Both the position numbers and the translations under genes were made by a program. The notes below the pieces were generated by a model. The model was not told where the DNA came from. It did not search any database and saw nothing but the letters and a program-made list of their open reading frames with translations. A DNA stretch of 64,000 nucleotides from Acidobacteriaceae bacterium (GTDB taxonomy: Bacteria; Acidobacteriota; Terriglobia; Terriglobales; Acidobacteriaceae), in assembly GCA_003138515.1 (NCBI GenBank), contig PLGG01000047.1:97011-161010 (forward strand), read 5' to 3'. Positions 22,060-27,699 of the stretch are shown here, one piece after another (positions within the stretch are counted from its first letter, which is position 1; each line of letters opens with the position of its first letter).

Positions 22060-23001
22060 TCAGCCGGCTTGGCTCTCTTTGTCACCATCGCCGTTATTTC
22101 CGCCTTCATTCGGGGCCGATTCCCGCTTAGCCGTTCGCGCTTCAGCCCCCGCCAGAAGGGCGATGAAAGCGTCATCCTTCTCAAAGCACTGAAAGCCCTC
22201 TCGCATCCATTCCCCTCGAATCCTCAGGACATGCCCGGGGTCGATTGCGAGCGCTTTCTCTAGAAGCCGCAGACACTCCGTTCGATAATCGTTCCGAGTT
22301 CGGTCGCCCGAAAATAGTCGTCCATAACAATAAGCTAAGTTAAAGATCGTTATTGAATCCTCTGGATACAATTCGAGGTACATATTGCTATATCGGATTG
22401 ACTCGAGGTACTGGCCGGTCTCAAGTAAGTAGTAGCCCAGAAGCTGCATAGCGGTAGCTGGCGGATCACCCCCAGTAATCAAGTCCCGAATAATCTTTGC
22501 TGCTGACGAATAATCCTTCTGCAACGCTTTCAGGTCGGCGTATGCAATCGTCAACGCTGCGTGGAAAGGCTGAATTAACAAGGCCCGCTGTATCCATTGT
22601 TCACCTAGCAGAATCTGGTTATCGCGCGAGCCGGGCCCCTCAAAATAGGCCTTGTAGTACTGGATGTACGCGGCTTTCGAAATGCTATCCCAGTCGAGCG
22701 ATGCTCCGGAGTCTAAGCGTTCCTCGACCAACTCCAAGAACTTATCAACTTCCTTTGAATAAAGGAGCACACGAATCTCTTCGCGTTCATCTTTGCTTAT
22801 CACAGATTCGGACACGTCGTTAACATAGGTCAGAAGGTTGGTTGGCAGCTTGTTCAGCAGTTCATGAACGACGTTGGCTGCGCCTTCAGCGCTTGCGGTC
22901 CGAGCACGAGCCCTTGCAAGCTGCTCGTTTAGATTCAGTTCCCGCTGAAGAAACATGAAGAAGAACCCGGTGCCAAACCCGAGGGCGACGGTGCTGATCA
23001 C
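22060..23001 (-). CDS. TPR-containing protein, C-terminal part of a frameshifted gene
   Basis: A 313-residue product if started at GTG 23001. It has one membrane helix (VISTVALGFGTGFFFMFLQ), then a coiled coil (NLNEQLARARARTASAEGAA). TPR-like helical pairs follow (YYKAYFEGPG, ALTIAYADLKALQKDYSSAAKII, LLGYYLLETGQYLESIRYSNMYLELYPEDSITIFNLAYCYG). Its frame stays open further upstream and overlaps the end of the gene at 23040. The joined reading gives one continuous membrane plus TPR protein, and no ribosome site supports a separate start here. I read it as the second half of one gene broken by a one-base loss near 23062-23066. Confidence 0.6.
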   Translation of the reverse strand: MISTVALGFGTGFFFMFLQRELNLNEQLARARARTASAEGAANVVHELLNKLPTNLLTYVNDVSESVISKDEREEIRVLLYSKEVDKFLELVEERLDSGASLDWDSISKAAYIQYYKAYFEGPGSRDNQILLGEQWIQRALLIQPFHAALTIAYADLKALQKDYSSAAKIIRDLITGGDPPATAMQLLGYYLLETGQYLESIRYSNMYLELYPEDSITIFNLAYCYGRLFSGDRTRNDYRTECLRLLEKALAIDPGHVLRIRGEWMREGFQCFEKDDAFIALLAGAEARTAKRESAPNEGGNNGDGDKESQAG

Positions 23002-23039
23002 GAGAGCGAGATCATTTCCCTCACCCCCAGCCGAAAAGA

Positions 23040-23351
23040 TTAGAAGAAGCCGTTTAACGGACCCCCACGCTCCATTACCTCCGCAGCACCTGCGCCGGTG
23101 ATGCCCGCTATCAACCAGTCCCGAATTTTCCCGATTGTGGCCTCTTCCTCCTTGCCGCTGCTTGTGAAGAGAAACGCAGAGAAAACTCCTAGAACCGTGC
23201 CAAACCCAAGAGATGCCAGCAGCGACACAACATGACCAAGATTCAATGCACCTGCATTGCTTCCCGCAAGAAAGCACCAGAGTATTTCGCAAAGCAAGAT
23301 GCCGCCCCAAAGAAACGGCTTCGAAACAGGCTTCGATCTGTCATCCGCCAT
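23040..23351 (-). CDS. Membrane protein, N-terminal part of the same frameshifted gene
   Basis: A 103-residue product, ATG 23351, with GGAGG six bases upstream. Two membrane helices (PFLWGGILLCEILWCFLAG and VVSLLASLGFGTVLGVFSAFLF) are followed by ATIGKIRDWLIAGITGAGAAEV. The frame ends shortly after a run of five Gs (C5 at 23062-23066 on the plus strand). One added G would continue it straight into the TPR frame as one protein of about 430 residues. It could be a true mutation, an assembly error or a programmed shift. Confidence 0.6.
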   Translation of the reverse strand: MADDRSKPVSKPFLWGGILLCEILWCFLAGSNAGALNLGHVVSLLASLGFGTVLGVFSAFLFTSSGKEEEATIGKIRDWLIAGITGAGAAEVMERGGPLNGFF

Positions 23352-23761
23352 GGTCCCTCCGGACTGAAGATTGGCTATTTCCAGGCGTAAATCCGAGTGT
23401 GGAATCGGAACTACCAACCCCGGCCTTAGCCAGTAGTCCCACTTTTGACGCCATGAAGTTTCTCCGCGAGACTGCTAAGCAGCGTCGAACGCCGGGGACA
23501 AGCATAACCAGAGAATTCACAAGGACTATACAACGAAGATGCACTTTGCGCTCGGCCTTTTTTGCGGGACTGCGGCTGATGCGCGCGTCTCGATTTCGAA
23601 ACAGGCTCACTCAAGCATGAATCAACCCGGACCAGAACTCTACACTACGCGGGGACGGGCACGGTCGAAATTCCGATCGTAGCCACTTCTTCGCCGGTAG
23701 CGATCATCAACTACCGAAAGCTTACCGCTTCAAAGAAAAGGACGGATGAGGTCTGTGCTCT
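23352..23761. other. Intergenic stretch between divergent genes
   Basis: About 410 bp with no convincing coding sequence, between the start of the split membrane/TPR gene (minus) and the proteasome-like gene (plus). It must hold both promoters, but no clear -35/-10 pair stands out. Confidence 0.4.
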
Positions 23762-23800
23762 CTCAGGTCCCCAAATGCAAGGGACCTGGGGCACCCAGGC
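23762..23800 (-). repeat. Dispersed intergenic repeat, reverse orientation
   Basis: Read on the minus strand it gives GCCTGGGTGCCCCAGGTCCC followed by TTGCATTTGGGGACCTGAG, matching the elements at 19322 and 24753. It sits directly before the proteasome-like gene, and the two flanking copies (23762 minus, 24753 plus) bracket that gene. Confidence 0.7.
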
Positions 23801-23855
23801 TCCAGTGTTAGAACAAAAGATGGGCATACGGCCCACCCGCCCCTGGAGGTATCGA

Positions 23856-24689
23856 GTGACACTGTGTATAGCAGCGATTTGCCAACAAAATCGTAGAGAC
23901 CGATTAATCATCGCCACAGATTGGAAGTCATCTACAGGTGAAGCTGGGGCAGAAAACCAGGACAAATTGAAATGGATCACCGACAACCTCCCAGCTTTGT
24001 TGGCGGGAACTGTTTCTCGCGCAATCGAACTTCGGGATACATATCGTCAGTACATTGAGGCCTTGGCGAATCGAACGCCCTCAGTCAGAATCACGCACCT
24101 CAACGTAGCCGACATTATGCGAAAACCACCGATTCTTTTTAAGGAAAAACTAGTCGAGGAGTACATTGGTTTGAAGTTTGGCCTAACCTACAAGGGTTTT
24201 CGCGAAGCTGTGGCGAAGCGGGAAATTCCCGAAGCTATCGCGACTGAAGCCTACACCGACATCGAGAACATCGACCTTGATTGCTGTCTGATAATTCCTA
24301 TCTACATCGACAAGGACGCGTACATATTCAAGGTCGACTCAGACGGGGGCGTAGAACGCTGCGACAATTTTGCCGCCATTGGCTCTGGAAGCTCGATTGC
24401 GGAGGCAACACTGTTCCAAAGGAAACAGGAAGATAGAATGACTCTGGGGCGAAGCGTCTATCACGTTTACGAGGCCATGAAGCTCGGCTCTATCGCCTCA
24501 GATGTTGGCCAAGAACACACCATAGACCTTGTGTATCGTCCCGGCGAAAAGGGAGCGACTGTGGTGCTGGAGACAACTTCAGATAAGGCAGATCGATTCC
24601 TTGCGGCAAAGTTCAAGAAACTCGGGCCTACACCTTTTACGAAGATGCCTCTACCCAATCGATTCTGGACGGCCGACGTACCGGGATAG
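23856..24689 (+). CDS. Proteasome-like Ntn hydrolase
   Basis: A 277-residue protein started at GTG 23856, which GGAGG precedes by six bases. After the start codon it reads TLCIAAIC...LIIATDW...ENQDKLKWI...ALLAGT. This matches the opening of proteasome beta/HslV subunits: N-terminal Thr nucleophile, an Asp in ATD (about 21) and a Lys in DKLKWI (about 36). The second half (CCLIIPIYIDKDAYIFKVDSDGGVER, AIGSGSSIAEATLFQR) resembles the later beta strands and the Gly/Ser-rich segment of that fold. No ATPase or second subunit lies nearby. If the initiator Met is removed, Thr would be exposed. Peptidase activity is inferred. Confidence 0.68.
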   Translation: MTLCIAAICQQNRRDRLIIATDWKSSTGEAGAENQDKLKWITDNLPALLAGTVSRAIELRDTYRQYIEALANRTPSVRITHLNVADIMRKPPILFKEKLVEEYIGLKFGLTYKGFREAVAKREIPEAIATEAYTDIENIDLDCCLIIPIYIDKDAYIFKVDSDGGVERCDNFAAIGSGSSIAEATLFQRKQEDRMTLGRSVYHVYEAMKLGSIASDVGQEHTIDLVYRPGEKGATVVLETTSDKADRFLAAKFKKLGPTPFTKMPLPNRFWTADVPG

Positions 24690-25225: not shown

Positions 25226-25233
25226 CTAAACGG

Positions 25234-25256
25234 GGTAATTATATACTTGACAAATC
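25234..25256 (+). repeat. Left inverted repeat of the transposon (IRL)
   Basis: It starts GGTAATTATATACTTGAC and matches the reverse complement of the right end at 21 of 23 positions. Directly outside lies the target duplication CTAAACGG (25226-25233). It includes the -35 box of the transposase promoter. Confidence 0.88.
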
Positions 25257-25275
25257 AAATGGATTGTCCTATTCT
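25247..25275 (+). promoter_or_regulatory. Transposase promoter overlapping IRL
   Basis: TTGACA (25247-25252), a 17-bp spacer and TATTCT (25270-25275) form a good sigma-70 promoter. The expected transcription start is at or next to ATG 25282, and no Shine-Dalgarno sequence fits between, so the mRNA may be leaderless. Confidence 0.6.
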
Positions 25276-25281
25276 TAAATT

Positions 25282-26250
25282 ATGAAAGTGCCAAAGACTC
25301 TCCAACAAGCCATCATTCACTTCGCAAACCTTGATAATTGCTTGGCTTACATGGTCTCGCATCGCTGGCCAGCGGGCGTCGAGTGCCCTACCTGTGGCCG
25401 CAAGGATGTGACCTATCTGGCCAACCAAAAGAAGTGGCAGTGCAAAAGCGGCCATGCGAAGCGCCAGTTTACCGCCAAGGTCGGGACCATCTTCGAGGAT
25501 TCCCCTCTGGGCCTCGAAAAGTGGCTTCCTGCGGTGTGGCTCATCGCCACTGCAAAGAACGGTGTTAGCTCCTGCGAAATTGCCCGGTCCCTCGACGTGA
25601 CCCAAAAGACCGCATGGTTCATGCTGCATCGAATCCGCAAGGCAATGGCCAACGGCTCCATGATGAAGATCGGCGGCAATGGCGGAGAAGTCGAAGCGGA
25701 TGAAACCTTCATCGGCGGCAAGGCTCGGAACATGCACAAGGACGTTTACGAGCGCCGCATCACTGGAATGGGACAGAGCTTCCGCGACAAAACCATCGTG
25801 ATGGGGATGCTTGAGCGCGGGGGCCAGGTTCGCACTCAGATCATTCCAGACCGGCAAAAGCACACTTTGCAGCCCATCGTTCGCCAGCATGTCGAAGCTG
25901 GTGCGGCTCTCTTCACTGACGAGATGGGCGGATACAAAGGACTGCACAAAGAGTATCTGCATCAGATCATCGACCATGCCGTTTGCTACGTGAATGGCCG
26001 CATCCACACTAACGGCATGGAGAATTTCTGGAGCCTCTTGAAGCGGGGCATCAATGGAACCTACGTCAGTGTCGAGCCGTTTCATTTGTTCCGCTACCTC
26101 GATGAGCAAGCGTTTCGCTACAATAATCGCGCTACCAAAAAGAACCCGATGAATGATTCCGACCGTTTCTCTGTTGTCTTATCTCAAGTGGCCGGTAAGC
26201 GCCTCACCTATGCCGAAGTCACCGGCAAGGTGGGAGCGACGTGTTTCTAA
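25282..26250 (+). CDS. IS1595-family (ISXO2-like) DDE transposase
   Basis: A 322-residue transposase: N-terminal zinc ribbon (CPTCG, then WQCKSGH), helix-turn-helix region (SSCEIARSLDVTQKTAWFMLHRIR), and an RNase-H-like catalytic core. The core's acidic residues are in EADETFIGGK, LFTDEMGGY and NGMENFWSLLK. These features define the IS1595/ISXO2 group. Full length and undamaged, so the element may still move. It is expressed from a promoter inside the left inverted repeat and converges with the passenger operon. Confidence 0.93.
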   Translation: MKVPKTLQQAIIHFANLDNCLAYMVSHRWPAGVECPTCGRKDVTYLANQKKWQCKSGHAKRQFTAKVGTIFEDSPLGLEKWLPAVWLIATAKNGVSSCEIARSLDVTQKTAWFMLHRIRKAMANGSMMKIGGNGGEVEADETFIGGKARNMHKDVYERRITGMGQSFRDKTIVMGMLERGGQVRTQIIPDRQKHTLQPIVRQHVEAGAALFTDEMGGYKGLHKEYLHQIIDHAVCYVNGRIHTNGMENFWSLLKRGINGTYVSVEPFHLFRYLDEQAFRYNNRATKKNPMNDSDRFSVVLSQVAGKRLTYAEVTGKVGATCF

Positions 26251-26295
26251 TCCTTCACGTTTGAAGCGGGGCCGGAGGCCGAATGAGCTAAAGTC

Positions 26296-26625
26296 CTAGG
26301 CAAAACCAAGCGACTTCCTTACGGATTCCGCCTTTTTGAGCCGTTCAACAGCAGTTTCCAATTCCTTATCGAGCGAGAGTACAGCTTCGATTTTGGTCAC
26401 AGAAACATAGGAGTCGATGTTGTCTTCGATCTCAGCGCGCACTTCCTTGGCGCCGTCTTCGAGATGGGCACTTTCGCGGGTCATTCTAGCCAAAAGCCAA
26501 GTCACTTTCTGATGCAGGCCGCCCCACTGCTGAGCCCTAGCCCTCAGTAATGCCAGAGCCGCCTTTGCTTCCTCGACTTCCAGCAACGCTGCGCCCTGAA
26601 TGGCGCGTTTCGCTTCTCCGCTCAC
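26296..26625 (-). CDS. Transposon passenger: small coiled-coil protein
   Basis: A 109-residue protein with a GTG start and GGGAGG nine bases upstream. It is almost wholly helical and charged, with heptad patterns (LEVEEAKAALALLRARAQQW and LDKELETAVERLKKAES). It is the last gene of the minus-strand passenger operon and overlaps the preceding 72-residue frame by 89 bp, so translation is probably coupled. No family recognised; a partner or antitoxin-like role for the upstream HEPN protein is speculation. Confidence 0.6.
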   Translation of the reverse strand: MSGEAKRAIQGAALLEVEEAKAALALLRARAQQWGGLHQKVTWLLARMTRESAHLEDGAKEVRAEIEDNIDSYVSVTKIEAVLSLDKELETAVERLKKAESVRKSLGFA

Positions 26626-26755
26626 TTCTCGTTACCTCCCGGTTCCGTTTGTCCTCTGCCATCGCTGCTTTGACGGCTTTCGGATCAGCCTTCAGGATCG
26701 TGTCCAGCGCGCGATTGAAGGCTTCAAAGTCGGTGCTCCTGCTGCGATTTGCCAT
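26537..26755 (-). CDS. Transposon passenger: small basic protein
   Basis: A 72-residue protein starting at ATG 26755, nine bases after the stop of the HEPN gene. Residues 1-40 look like a folded helical unit (FEAFNRALDTILKADPKAVKAAM), then a very basic Arg/Ser/Gly tail. Its 3' part overlaps the next gene in another frame. The tail may be unstructured or nucleic-acid binding. Unrecognised; presence in a tight operon supports that it is real. Confidence 0.55.
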   Translation of the reverse strand: MANRSRSTDFEAFNRALDTILKADPKAVKAAMAEDKRNREVTRSERRSETRHSGRSVAGSRGSKGGSGITEG

Positions 26756-26764
26756 GCCCCGATC

Positions 26765-27631
26765 CTACGCTCCTATCAGATTTCCAGTACTCGTGTGACC
26801 CAACACGTGTTCAATAAATGCCACGGTCACTGTGAGCAGATATTCCGCAGTGCGCTTGTCATAGACCTTCTCCAACTCATGCAGTGCAGCATTCCGGTGG
26901 CCTCTGCTGATAGCCTGAATGTCGGTCAAAATCTCCCCATAGAACGGCTCTGAGGCTTTCCAAGCATCGGTCTTATCCCCATGCTTCTCGCGCATCTTCT
27001 TCTCGATGGCCTTGCCAATACCATCCCATGAACGCGCATCGAAATCGACCGCGAGCGACTTGGCAACGAGGCGCAAGCCATAGTCCACAACGCGCATCAA
27101 GTGAAACACACATGCTGTGTCCTCATCGTAGGCATAGCAGCGCCCCGCCGACTCCAATTCAGACCGAATTTCTGGATTCTGGCGGATGCCGGGATAGACG
27201 GAAAGCCACAATCCCAACTCGTAGTCTGGCTTTTCAACGTATCGGAATGCCCGCGTTTTTAGTTCCTCCAAAAGACGCCGCAGGAGTTGGTCGAGTTCCT
27301 GGCTAGCGCTCGACCAATTCTCACGCGCTAAGGCGCTGCGAACCGTCTCAATCTGGTATCGAGTGAGCTGCAAGTTGAACTTATATGTGTGCTCTAAGAG
27401 CTTTTCTAAGCATTCGTCCAACCTCGCCCGAGGCTTTTCATCCTGAAGCCATAGATGCGACATGCTCATCGACGAAATTATTTTCGTGATCTCAATGAAG
27501 TCCTCAGCAGCGTATCTCAGCACGTCCAGTAGGGACACCACCCCAAACCGCAAGCCGGACCATGGGCACACTCCTAGCCCGTCGCTTGGCCCTTCTCGGG
27601 TTAATGGGTAAATCGTCTCAGTTAAGGGCAT
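26765..27631 (-). CDS. Transposon passenger: HEPN-motif protein
   Basis: A 288-residue mostly helical protein. Near the C-terminus it has SRGHRNAALHELEK: the R-N-X3-H pattern (Arg246, His251) of HEPN ribonucleases, followed by the usual final helix (AEYLLTVTVAFIEHVL). The middle part (FHLMRVVDYGLRLVAKSLAVDF) fits the helical core before that motif. HEPN proteins often act in toxin-antitoxin or phage-defence systems by cutting RNA. The start at 27631 abuts the right inverted repeat; starts further in are possible because no clear ribosome site is seen. Nuclease activity is inferred. Confidence 0.65.
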   Translation of the reverse strand: MPLTETIYPLTREGPSDGLGVCPWSGLRFGVVSLLDVLRYAAEDFIEITKIISSMSMSHLWLQDEKPRARLDECLEKLLEHTYKFNLQLTRYQIETVRSALARENWSSASQELDQLLRRLLEELKTRAFRYVEKPDYELGLWLSVYPGIRQNPEIRSELESAGRCYAYDEDTACVFHLMRVVDYGLRLVAKSLAVDFDARSWDGIGKAIEKKMREKHGDKTDAWKASEPFYGEILTDIQAISRGHRNAALHELEKVYDKRTAEYLLTVTVAFIEHVLGHTSTGNLIGA

Positions 27632-27654
27632 GATTCGTCAAGTATATATTTACC
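27632..27654 (-). repeat. Right inverted repeat of the transposon (IRR)
   Basis: On the minus strand it begins GGTAAATATATACTTGAC, differing from IRL at two positions. The second copy of the target duplication CTAAACGG follows at 27655-27662. The TTGACG box inside may serve as -35 for the passenger operon. Confidence 0.88.
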
Positions 27655-27699
27655 CTAAACGGTAAATAGCCGCCAGCGTGACGGCCGGCTCTTTAGCGC

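Follow-up and report, generated by a model that had tools for sequence, protein, structure and literature searches.

Insertion sequences (IS) that carry passenger genes are termed tIS in the excerpted text of PMC7986276. Such elements are known from the IS1595 family, among them tISCpe8 and MTnSag1 (PMC5704250, PMC7986276), and the excerpt of PMC5704250 describes IS1595-type tIS with inverted ends of about 25 bp, an 8-bp target duplication and passenger genes. The element analyzed here occupies positions 25234-27654 (2421 bp) of a 64,000-nucleotide stretch of an Acidobacteriaceae genome (assembly GCA_003138515.1, contig PLGG01000047.1), which as a whole is called the window. It resembles tISCpe8 and MTnSag1/tISSag10 in its IS1595 transposase, probably of the DDE type, ends of ~25 bp, 8-bp duplication and passengers. 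Unlike those elements, which are of interest for resistance or mobilization, it probably belongs to a clade of IS1595 transposons with a fixed chassis and one exchangeable cargo slot, distinguished by a clade-wide small gene, the fixed position of the slot and mainly defence-type cargo. The small gene is named sbp in this analysis, for small basic protein. Tn7-like transposons likewise possess a transposition module that moves varied cargo including defence systems, and 96% of them carry cargo according to the excerpt of PMC8649781; they use several core genes, whereas the present elements, 1.6-5.9 kb in size, have a single transposase and a single small gene. In Tn3, too, additional small genes have become a fixed part of the transposition module: the excerpt of PMC7157771 reports toxin-antitoxin pairs, with HEPN among their types. 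In contrast to these pairs, sbp is a single gene, is conserved where the cargo is not, and belongs to no recognised toxin-antitoxin pair. Cargo-bearing IS1595 elements are already known, and it is the shared chassis with sbp that looks new. A literature search turned up no description of a small gene conserved among IS1595 elements, which is weak evidence, with the 2009 family paper by Siguier et al., reportedly covering tIS elements, outside that search.

The window element is bordered by an exact 8-bp target duplication, CTAAACGG, read directly at 25226-25233 on the left and found again as an exact copy at 27655-27662 on the right. The left terminal inverted repeat (IR-L; 25234-25257, forward strand) consists of GGTAATTATATACTTGAC followed by the element-specific AAATCA, and the right one (IR-R) lies at 27631-27654 on the reverse strand. 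The inverted arms 25233-25257 and 27631-27655 comprise 25 nt and are 92% complementary, in line with the 21 of 23 matching positions given in an earlier note on this DNA. The transposase of 322 amino acids (aa) is encoded on the forward strand at 25282-26250 without internal stops and exceeds the cut-offs of all three models that it matches, namely PF12762 (1.7e-41), NF033547 (2.4e-53) and, for the N-terminal zinc ribbon, PF12760 (8.7e-10). As candidates for the DD(E/N) catalytic residues, D140, D213 and N248 are invariant across nine aligned transposases, and E247 is replaced by D in some rows. The ends and the 8-bp duplication are thus those of IS1595-type elements, and the non-transposition genes between the ends make the element a tIS. 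This confirms the claims of the earlier note that an IS1595-type element with exact duplication and intact transposase is present, and that it is a mobile module with cargo, more than a bare IS. A defence island without mobility is ruled out by the ends and the duplication. With regard to integrative and mobilizable elements, a Pfam scan of the element's proteins detected no relaxase family.

When up to three mismatches are allowed, the two ends of the element are the only matches to the end pattern in the 4.23-Mb, 90-contig assembly, and the reversed pattern is absent. Three end-like sites elsewhere in the window (22437, 48607 and 50355, with 2 to 5 mismatches) have no partner end. The element is single-copy in its own genome, where the remaining matches are 65-74% identical and cover only parts of it. 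This does not bear out the suggestion that it is recent and perhaps active, nor was an empty site found. A second copy, at which the ends could have been compared as had been envisaged, is absent from the genome, yet nine further elements have ends of the same type.

Relatives were selected by transposase alone. The genome harboring the window encodes 13 IS1595 transposases, ten of which, the window's included, are flanked by related ends. An exact 8-bp duplication was present in nine of these ten elements (C37, C26, C55, C72, C62, C16, C89, C66 and C49) and was not found for C22. They are 1583-4405 bp long; the smallest, C49, extends 545 bp past the transposase, and C16 has a transposase shortened to 275 aa. 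A profile scan of genome contigs with the alignment of nine own-genome transposases yielded 80 loci, mostly from Acidobacteriota; Planctomycetota, Deltaproteobacteria and Acidimicrobiia appear in one record title each. Of the 80, 51 were bounded by ends and an exact 8-bp duplication (1727-5899 bp, median 2649; 738-4894 bp past the transposase match). When the right-hand 8-mer was displaced (five shifts at each of 80 loci), one match was obtained in 400 tests, and this was a true element off by one base. The combination of ends and duplication therefore exceeds chance. All 60 bounded elements, i.e. the 51 scan loci and nine from the own genome, have at least 545 bp beyond the transposase. The 29 unbounded loci included no credible bare element, though five of them (L063, L076, L078, L079, L131) lie on contigs that stop within 930 bp past the transposase. 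The bare-IS candidates L065, L079 and L109 were rejected as chance-level, with mismatches at 8 of 24 end positions and at 4-6 of 8 duplication positions and with a left end lying far upstream. At two loci, L077 and L116, the terminal 8-mers are reverse complementary (CAAATTAG / CTAATTTG) and not direct repeats, which an inversion might explain.

In the usual layout of these elements, one end is followed by the transposase, sbp, the cargo slot and a 24-bp end. The sbp gene lies mostly on the strand opposite to the transposase, usually meeting it stop to stop. Of 54 convergent elements, 35 have the TAA that ends the transposase gene overlapping the TAG that ends sbp in the four bases CTAA, and in 42 the two stops are at most 60 bp apart. 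A profile trained on 61 elements detected sbp at E<=0.01 in 60, with 57 matches on the minus and three on the plus strand, and at 1e-3 in 58; own_C66 gave no match, L126 and own_C49 weak ones. The same model matched 28 of 29 held-out loci, at most about 2.4 kb from the transposase, and only twice in 467 kb of flanks, one of these two matches adjoining the end of another element, with which the duplication CTAATTTG is shared. At L070:4129-4138 two elements abut with one common CTAATTTG, so the second was inserted directly beside the first. On a tree of 108 of the 111 transposases (three were left out), the window falls within a clade of 96 rows, 89 of which have sbp by the model, compared with none of the 12 rows outside. 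In most elements the protein has 45-75 aa, beginning with an F-rich part and passing through a VPHSEIK-like segment to a Lys/Arg/Ser tail; an AlphaFold model consists of two helices and a loose tail (pLDDT 77). None of 38 members matched Pfam or NCBIfam at E<=0.01. As the proportion of nonsynonymous differences is below that of synonymous ones (pN < pS) in 11 of 11 close pairs, which are not independent, sbp is read as a protein.

The association extends to further genomes. Among 70 genomes of the phylum, IS1595 transposases were detected in 19 and sbp in four, all four with an IS1595 transposase. In 15 genomes of the genus, seven of eight sbp matches outside the own genome adjoin an IS1595 transposase or a fragment at a contig end, and six of eight in G139 and G147 adjoin a transposase or fragment. 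Several observations weigh against a constant link between sbp and the chassis. At E<=1e-6, 15 of the 19 phylum genomes with IS1595 transposases lack sbp. Of 15 additional transposase loci from the genus, only five match the model, another three having a look-alike by eye, and own_C66 and L102 have no sbp. The gene lies away from a transposase in G002 and at two of seven places in G147 (C7 and C15:105639), and on the transposase strand in three of 60 elements. C55 and C62 from the own genome, which have longer left parts, deviate from the layout, and own_C49 has sbp without a convincing main cargo ORF (open reading frame).

Exchange at one slot is indicated by comparison of close relatives. 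The closest transposases are those of a Terracidiphilus element (L053, 80% identity) and an Acidicapsa element (L054, 74%). Counted from its left end, the window element is homologous to L053 over 1-1050 (80%), in a 72-bp piece of sbp (76%) and in the last 24 bp, and to L054 over 1-1045 (72%) and in the last 24 bp only. The cargo of the three is unrelated: a DUF3800-like gene in L053, a 288-aa gene in the window and another gene in L054, which we take to be RusA-like by eye from a GDIDN-K-DAL-DD pattern. In 13 of 14 hand-picked near pairs, homology ends just past the transposase, or within or just after sbp, and the right end realigned over 24-52 bp in five of these 13. L086 and L098, for instance, are 89% identical over 1-1128, with the next homology in the last 27 bp; the remaining pair, L067 and L071, carries the same cargo and is collinear throughout. 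Cargo usually occupies the sbp strand between sbp and IR-R, near or overlapping sbp. A second slot is possible in L124 and L064, because sbp is ~400 bp away from the transposase there. Mapped onto the transposase tree, cargo class requires 21 changes for 42 labelled elements (maximum 22) and 13 for 34 (maximum 14). Judged from the compared sequences, what unites the elements is their ends, duplication, gene order and conserved sbp, with cargo that differs on a homologous chassis.

These data bear on the simpler account that the element is an ordinary IS1595 tIS with chance passenger genes, sbp being one more passenger. Published tIS of the family make this account conceivable, as do bare elements of 1191, 1150 and 1027 bp among more distant IS1595 elements. 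Against it stand the presence of cargo in every one of the 60 bounded clade members, one small gene common to 89 of the 96 clade rows and breakpoints of homology at one place in the chassis comparisons, so that we regard it as rather improbable. The clade with a fixed chassis and one slot is preferred, and the earlier mention of an element with its own cargo was right about the cargo and understated the pattern, since all 60 bounded relatives carry cargo in a defined slot. The IS1595 subgroup ISNwi1, presumably comprising elements of 1750-4750 bp with GGC ends, may overlap with the present clade. Different cargo was also seen in each member of a more distant IS1595 subgroup of the own genome, C58, C88 and C79 (L050, L051 and L052), bounded at 2040, 2033 and 2625 bp. 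Distant elements from alphaproteobacterial plasmids, L151 (Roseomonas plasmid) and L153, bear cargo as well, with a PIN-domain gene in L151, and terminate in a small ORF of similar look.

The ends may also function apart from the transposase. A 913-bp cassette at G000:C26:159396-160308 (L133:3397-4309) has both ends and the exact duplication CGATTTTG and contains a 249-aa ORF and a truncated sbp, but no transposase, as expected if the ends suffice in cis. It may have been moved in trans, or have lost the transposase once it had arrived. The piece resembles mobile insertion cassettes in having ends and a duplication without a transposase; unlike these, it retains cargo and a truncated sbp of the present chassis. 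At L134:3415-4735 (G000:C73), one IS1595-type end, sbp and a 371-aa ORF of RelA/SpoT type by eye occur without a transposase or a visible second end.

Two roles were considered for sbp. An accessory or regulatory protein of the transposase is the likeliest reading, although held tentatively; a partner of the cargo protein comes next and is less likely. In 35 of 43 cases, sbp either overlaps the same-strand cargo upstream of it or starts no more than 61 bp away, and in-frame fusions join sbp to a Dam-like methyltransferase ORF in L091 (L091:6995-8161) and to a DUF3800-like ORF in L177 (G013:C28, contig end). These fusions and this closeness support a link of sbp to the cargo in addition to that with the transposase, and both readings are retained. 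The same observations, together with the occurrence of sbp and cargo without a transposase in the C26 cassette and beside the RelA/SpoT-type ORF of C73, can be taken to mean that sbp serves the cargo as its antitoxin or chaperone and that the element is an addiction or defence cassette, with the transposase a late-comer. One small protein would then need to serve unrelated cargo types, and where the cargo differs between close relatives, sbp remains with the transposase (as in L086 and L098), which renders this explanation unlikely relative to a transposon chassis of which sbp is a part.

The cargo was compared with neighboring genes using 87 ORFs of at least 140 aa from 58 of the 61 elements (L097, L100 and L120 were left out, their transposase frame being missed by the pattern) and, as controls, 87 of 100 flank ORFs sampled from a pool of 226. 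The tallies list 25 of 28 Pfam families for cargo and 25 of 100 for flanks, and 25 of 325 and 25 of 30 PADLOC families, respectively, so the absence of any one family is unproven. Among the families listed, the cargo matched DUF3800 (12), GmrSD (3), N6/N4 methylase (2), RelA/SpoT (2) and Mrr (2), with single cases of C5 methylase, D12 methylase, AIPR, MmeI, AAA_15, DUF3226, HEPN_RiboL-PSP, DUF4145, SIR2_2 and Trypsin_2. The 87 flank ORFs matched 100 Pfam families, and the 25 listed are metabolic, regulatory or transposase families. PADLOC families numbered 325 in cargo versus 30 in flanks, each listed flank family being represented by one protein; a caution is that these are family counts inflated by overlapping (methylase) models and not protein counts. 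Nine of ten hand-picked long cargo proteins matched a PADLOC model at E<=1e-8, with none for L094. The models, which name predicted functions only, were PDC-S33 (two), type II methylase (two), NsnA / PD-T4-2_A, PD-Lambda-5_A, type IIG restriction enzyme, AbiU and HEC-06. In its predicted families, the cargo is far more similar to defence genes than the flank ORFs are.

Small defence genes are scattered in genomes without a clear vehicle, and a compact transposon chassis with exact borders would be one such vehicle. We tentatively propose that sbp-bearing IS1595 elements constitute an undescribed one-slot shuttle of solo defence genes between bacteria, widespread in Acidobacteriota and with a few other phyla also represented. 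In this proposal, sbp would be a dedicated component that links transposition to cargo, and the window would contribute a new HEPN-type effector. The slot is exactly bordered by sbp and IR-R; therefore cargo without assigned function, such as the 288-aa protein of the window, can be ranked as candidate defence genes. The role of a small protein conserved beside the transposase becomes a testable question.

This 288-aa ORF, the main cargo of the window (26765-27631, reverse strand), is a probable HEPN-type protein. Its ATG at 27631 coincides with the inner edge of IR-R; the start codon is uncertain, and a later true start is possible because homologues begin further in. The protein matched no family above cut-off in Pfam, NCBIfam or PADLOC, and only weakly a PHROG of unknown function (PHROG 32483, 8.7e-5). 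A first contig scan with 19 pattern matches revealed no relative. Weak partial matches were obtained in four of 60 related genomes besides its own, the one in G011 adjoining sbp and an IS1595 transposase. Seven further elements of the set encode homologues, whose identity to the window protein is 15-23%. Eight residues are invariant in the alignment of all eight proteins, including R246 and H251 (R246-x4-H251, 26879-26896, reverse strand), which correspond to the conserved R-x4-6-H of the HEPN superfamily. The predicted structure is all helical. For residues 148-283, HEPN structures lead the list of structural matches: 2hsb (Z 10.5, root-mean-square deviation 3.5, 119 aligned), 3o10 (10.1), 2q00 (9.7), RnlA 6y2p (9.3) and 1wol (9.2). 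We give slightly better than even chances to a HEPN-fold effector of RNase type, its RNase activity being predicted from fold model and motif. Some results speak against it: the model has a pLDDT of 68, rhodopsins, which are unrelated helical chains, reach 9.7 across this half too, helical bundles commonly give Z values near 10, and Foldseek with the predicted model gave no match at E<=0.001. A sequence search of solved structures with the homologue alignment gave a best E of 0.11. Another all-helical protein with a chance R-x4-H is therefore a serious, if somewhat less probable, candidate, in keeping also with the lack of family matches beyond the weak PHROG. On the other side, R and H are two of only eight invariant residues despite 15-23% identity to the window protein, and HEPN chains head the structural list, so the HEPN assignment is retained as probable.

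The earlier note described a three-gene operon opposite the transposase. Three minus-strand ORFs of 288, 72 and 109 aa are indeed present, the latter two overlapping; in place of an operon they represent one main gene and a split copy of the conserved small gene. The 72-aa ORF (26537-26755, reverse strand) matches the sbp model at 1.9e-12 and, by comparison with L053, consists of the front of sbp (STDFEAFNRALDTILKADPKAVKAAMAEDKRNRE) and an out-of-register tail, so that the front third of sbp survives in it. The sbp tail remains as SASGPASNVKD-stop at 26247-26282 (reverse strand), its stop TAG sharing CTAA with the transposase stop TAA. Between these parts, ~365 bp (26284-26648) have no counterpart in L053, where 36 bp occur, giving a net insert of ~330 bp. 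A 109-aa ORF with a GTG start (26296-26625, reverse strand) lies within the interrupting DNA and matched no family above cut-off in Pfam, NCBIfam, PADLOC or PHROG. The alignment indicates that the second and third genes of the supposed operon are one split sbp gene plus inserted DNA.

The ends themselves carry element-specific information. At positions 19-24, which were not used in locating ends, the two ends agree in 5.59 of 6 positions within elements versus 2.81 of 6 between elements (0 of 10000 permutations), which fits ends kept matched by each element's own transposase. The 60 target duplications favour C[TA]AATT[AT]G, and 1.98 of their 4 pairs are complementary. IR-L contains TTGACT or TTGACA in 52 of 61 elements, and a -10-like hexamer 16-18 bp after TTGAC[TA] has a mean fit of 4.1 of 6 across the 61 elements, versus 2.6 in shuffled DNA. 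In the window, the promoter-like site TTGACA-17-TATTCT (25247-25275, forward strand) begins with its first hexamer inside IR-L and precedes the transposase; taken singly it is within chance (one found, 1.8 expected by shuffles), which counts against its significance. A cargo promoter in IR-R was considered and rejected: the window has no notable -10-like match there, and across elements the fit is 3.3 versus 2.2 of 6, weaker than on the left.

The proposed chassis would comprise IR-L with the transposase promoter reaching into it, the DDE transposase, sbp placed stop to stop with it and the 24-bp IR-R. The transposase would bind both ends, as suggested by their agreement at positions 19-24 in each element, and the whole unit would be inserted at a C[TA]AATT[AT]G-like site with duplication of 8 bp. 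Cargo, mostly of the defence-gene kind, may then favour retention of the element. In the window, the slot is occupied by the 288-aa gene, and sbp is split by inserted DNA.

To find the empty site, the right flank was compared with 59 genomes of the genus. The neighboring gene was found in 56 of them, and none yielded the single CTAAACGG site that the earlier note had suggested for comparison; the closest relative, G013, ends 542 bp upstream of the match. The reason is that conservation in these genomes does not extend to the intergenic DNA where the element is inserted. Two of nine compared loci (G067 and G025) join the gene at 18-19.3 kb of the window to that at 27.8 kb, so about 8.5 kb are variable there and the element's own empty site is not isolable. 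Such a variable stretch could in principle harbor two unrelated adjacent insertions that mimic one element. This is highly improbable, as there is a single pair of matching ends with one exact duplication, and the same architecture recurs in dozens of relatives. To the left of the element, window positions 22063-24689 encode a tetratricopeptide repeat (TPR) protein and a proteasome-like (PF00227) protein. This stretch is absent between the same neighbors in G067 and G025 and has no IS1595 ends around it. Proteasome-like genes were also seen as cargo-like genes in C88 and C55.

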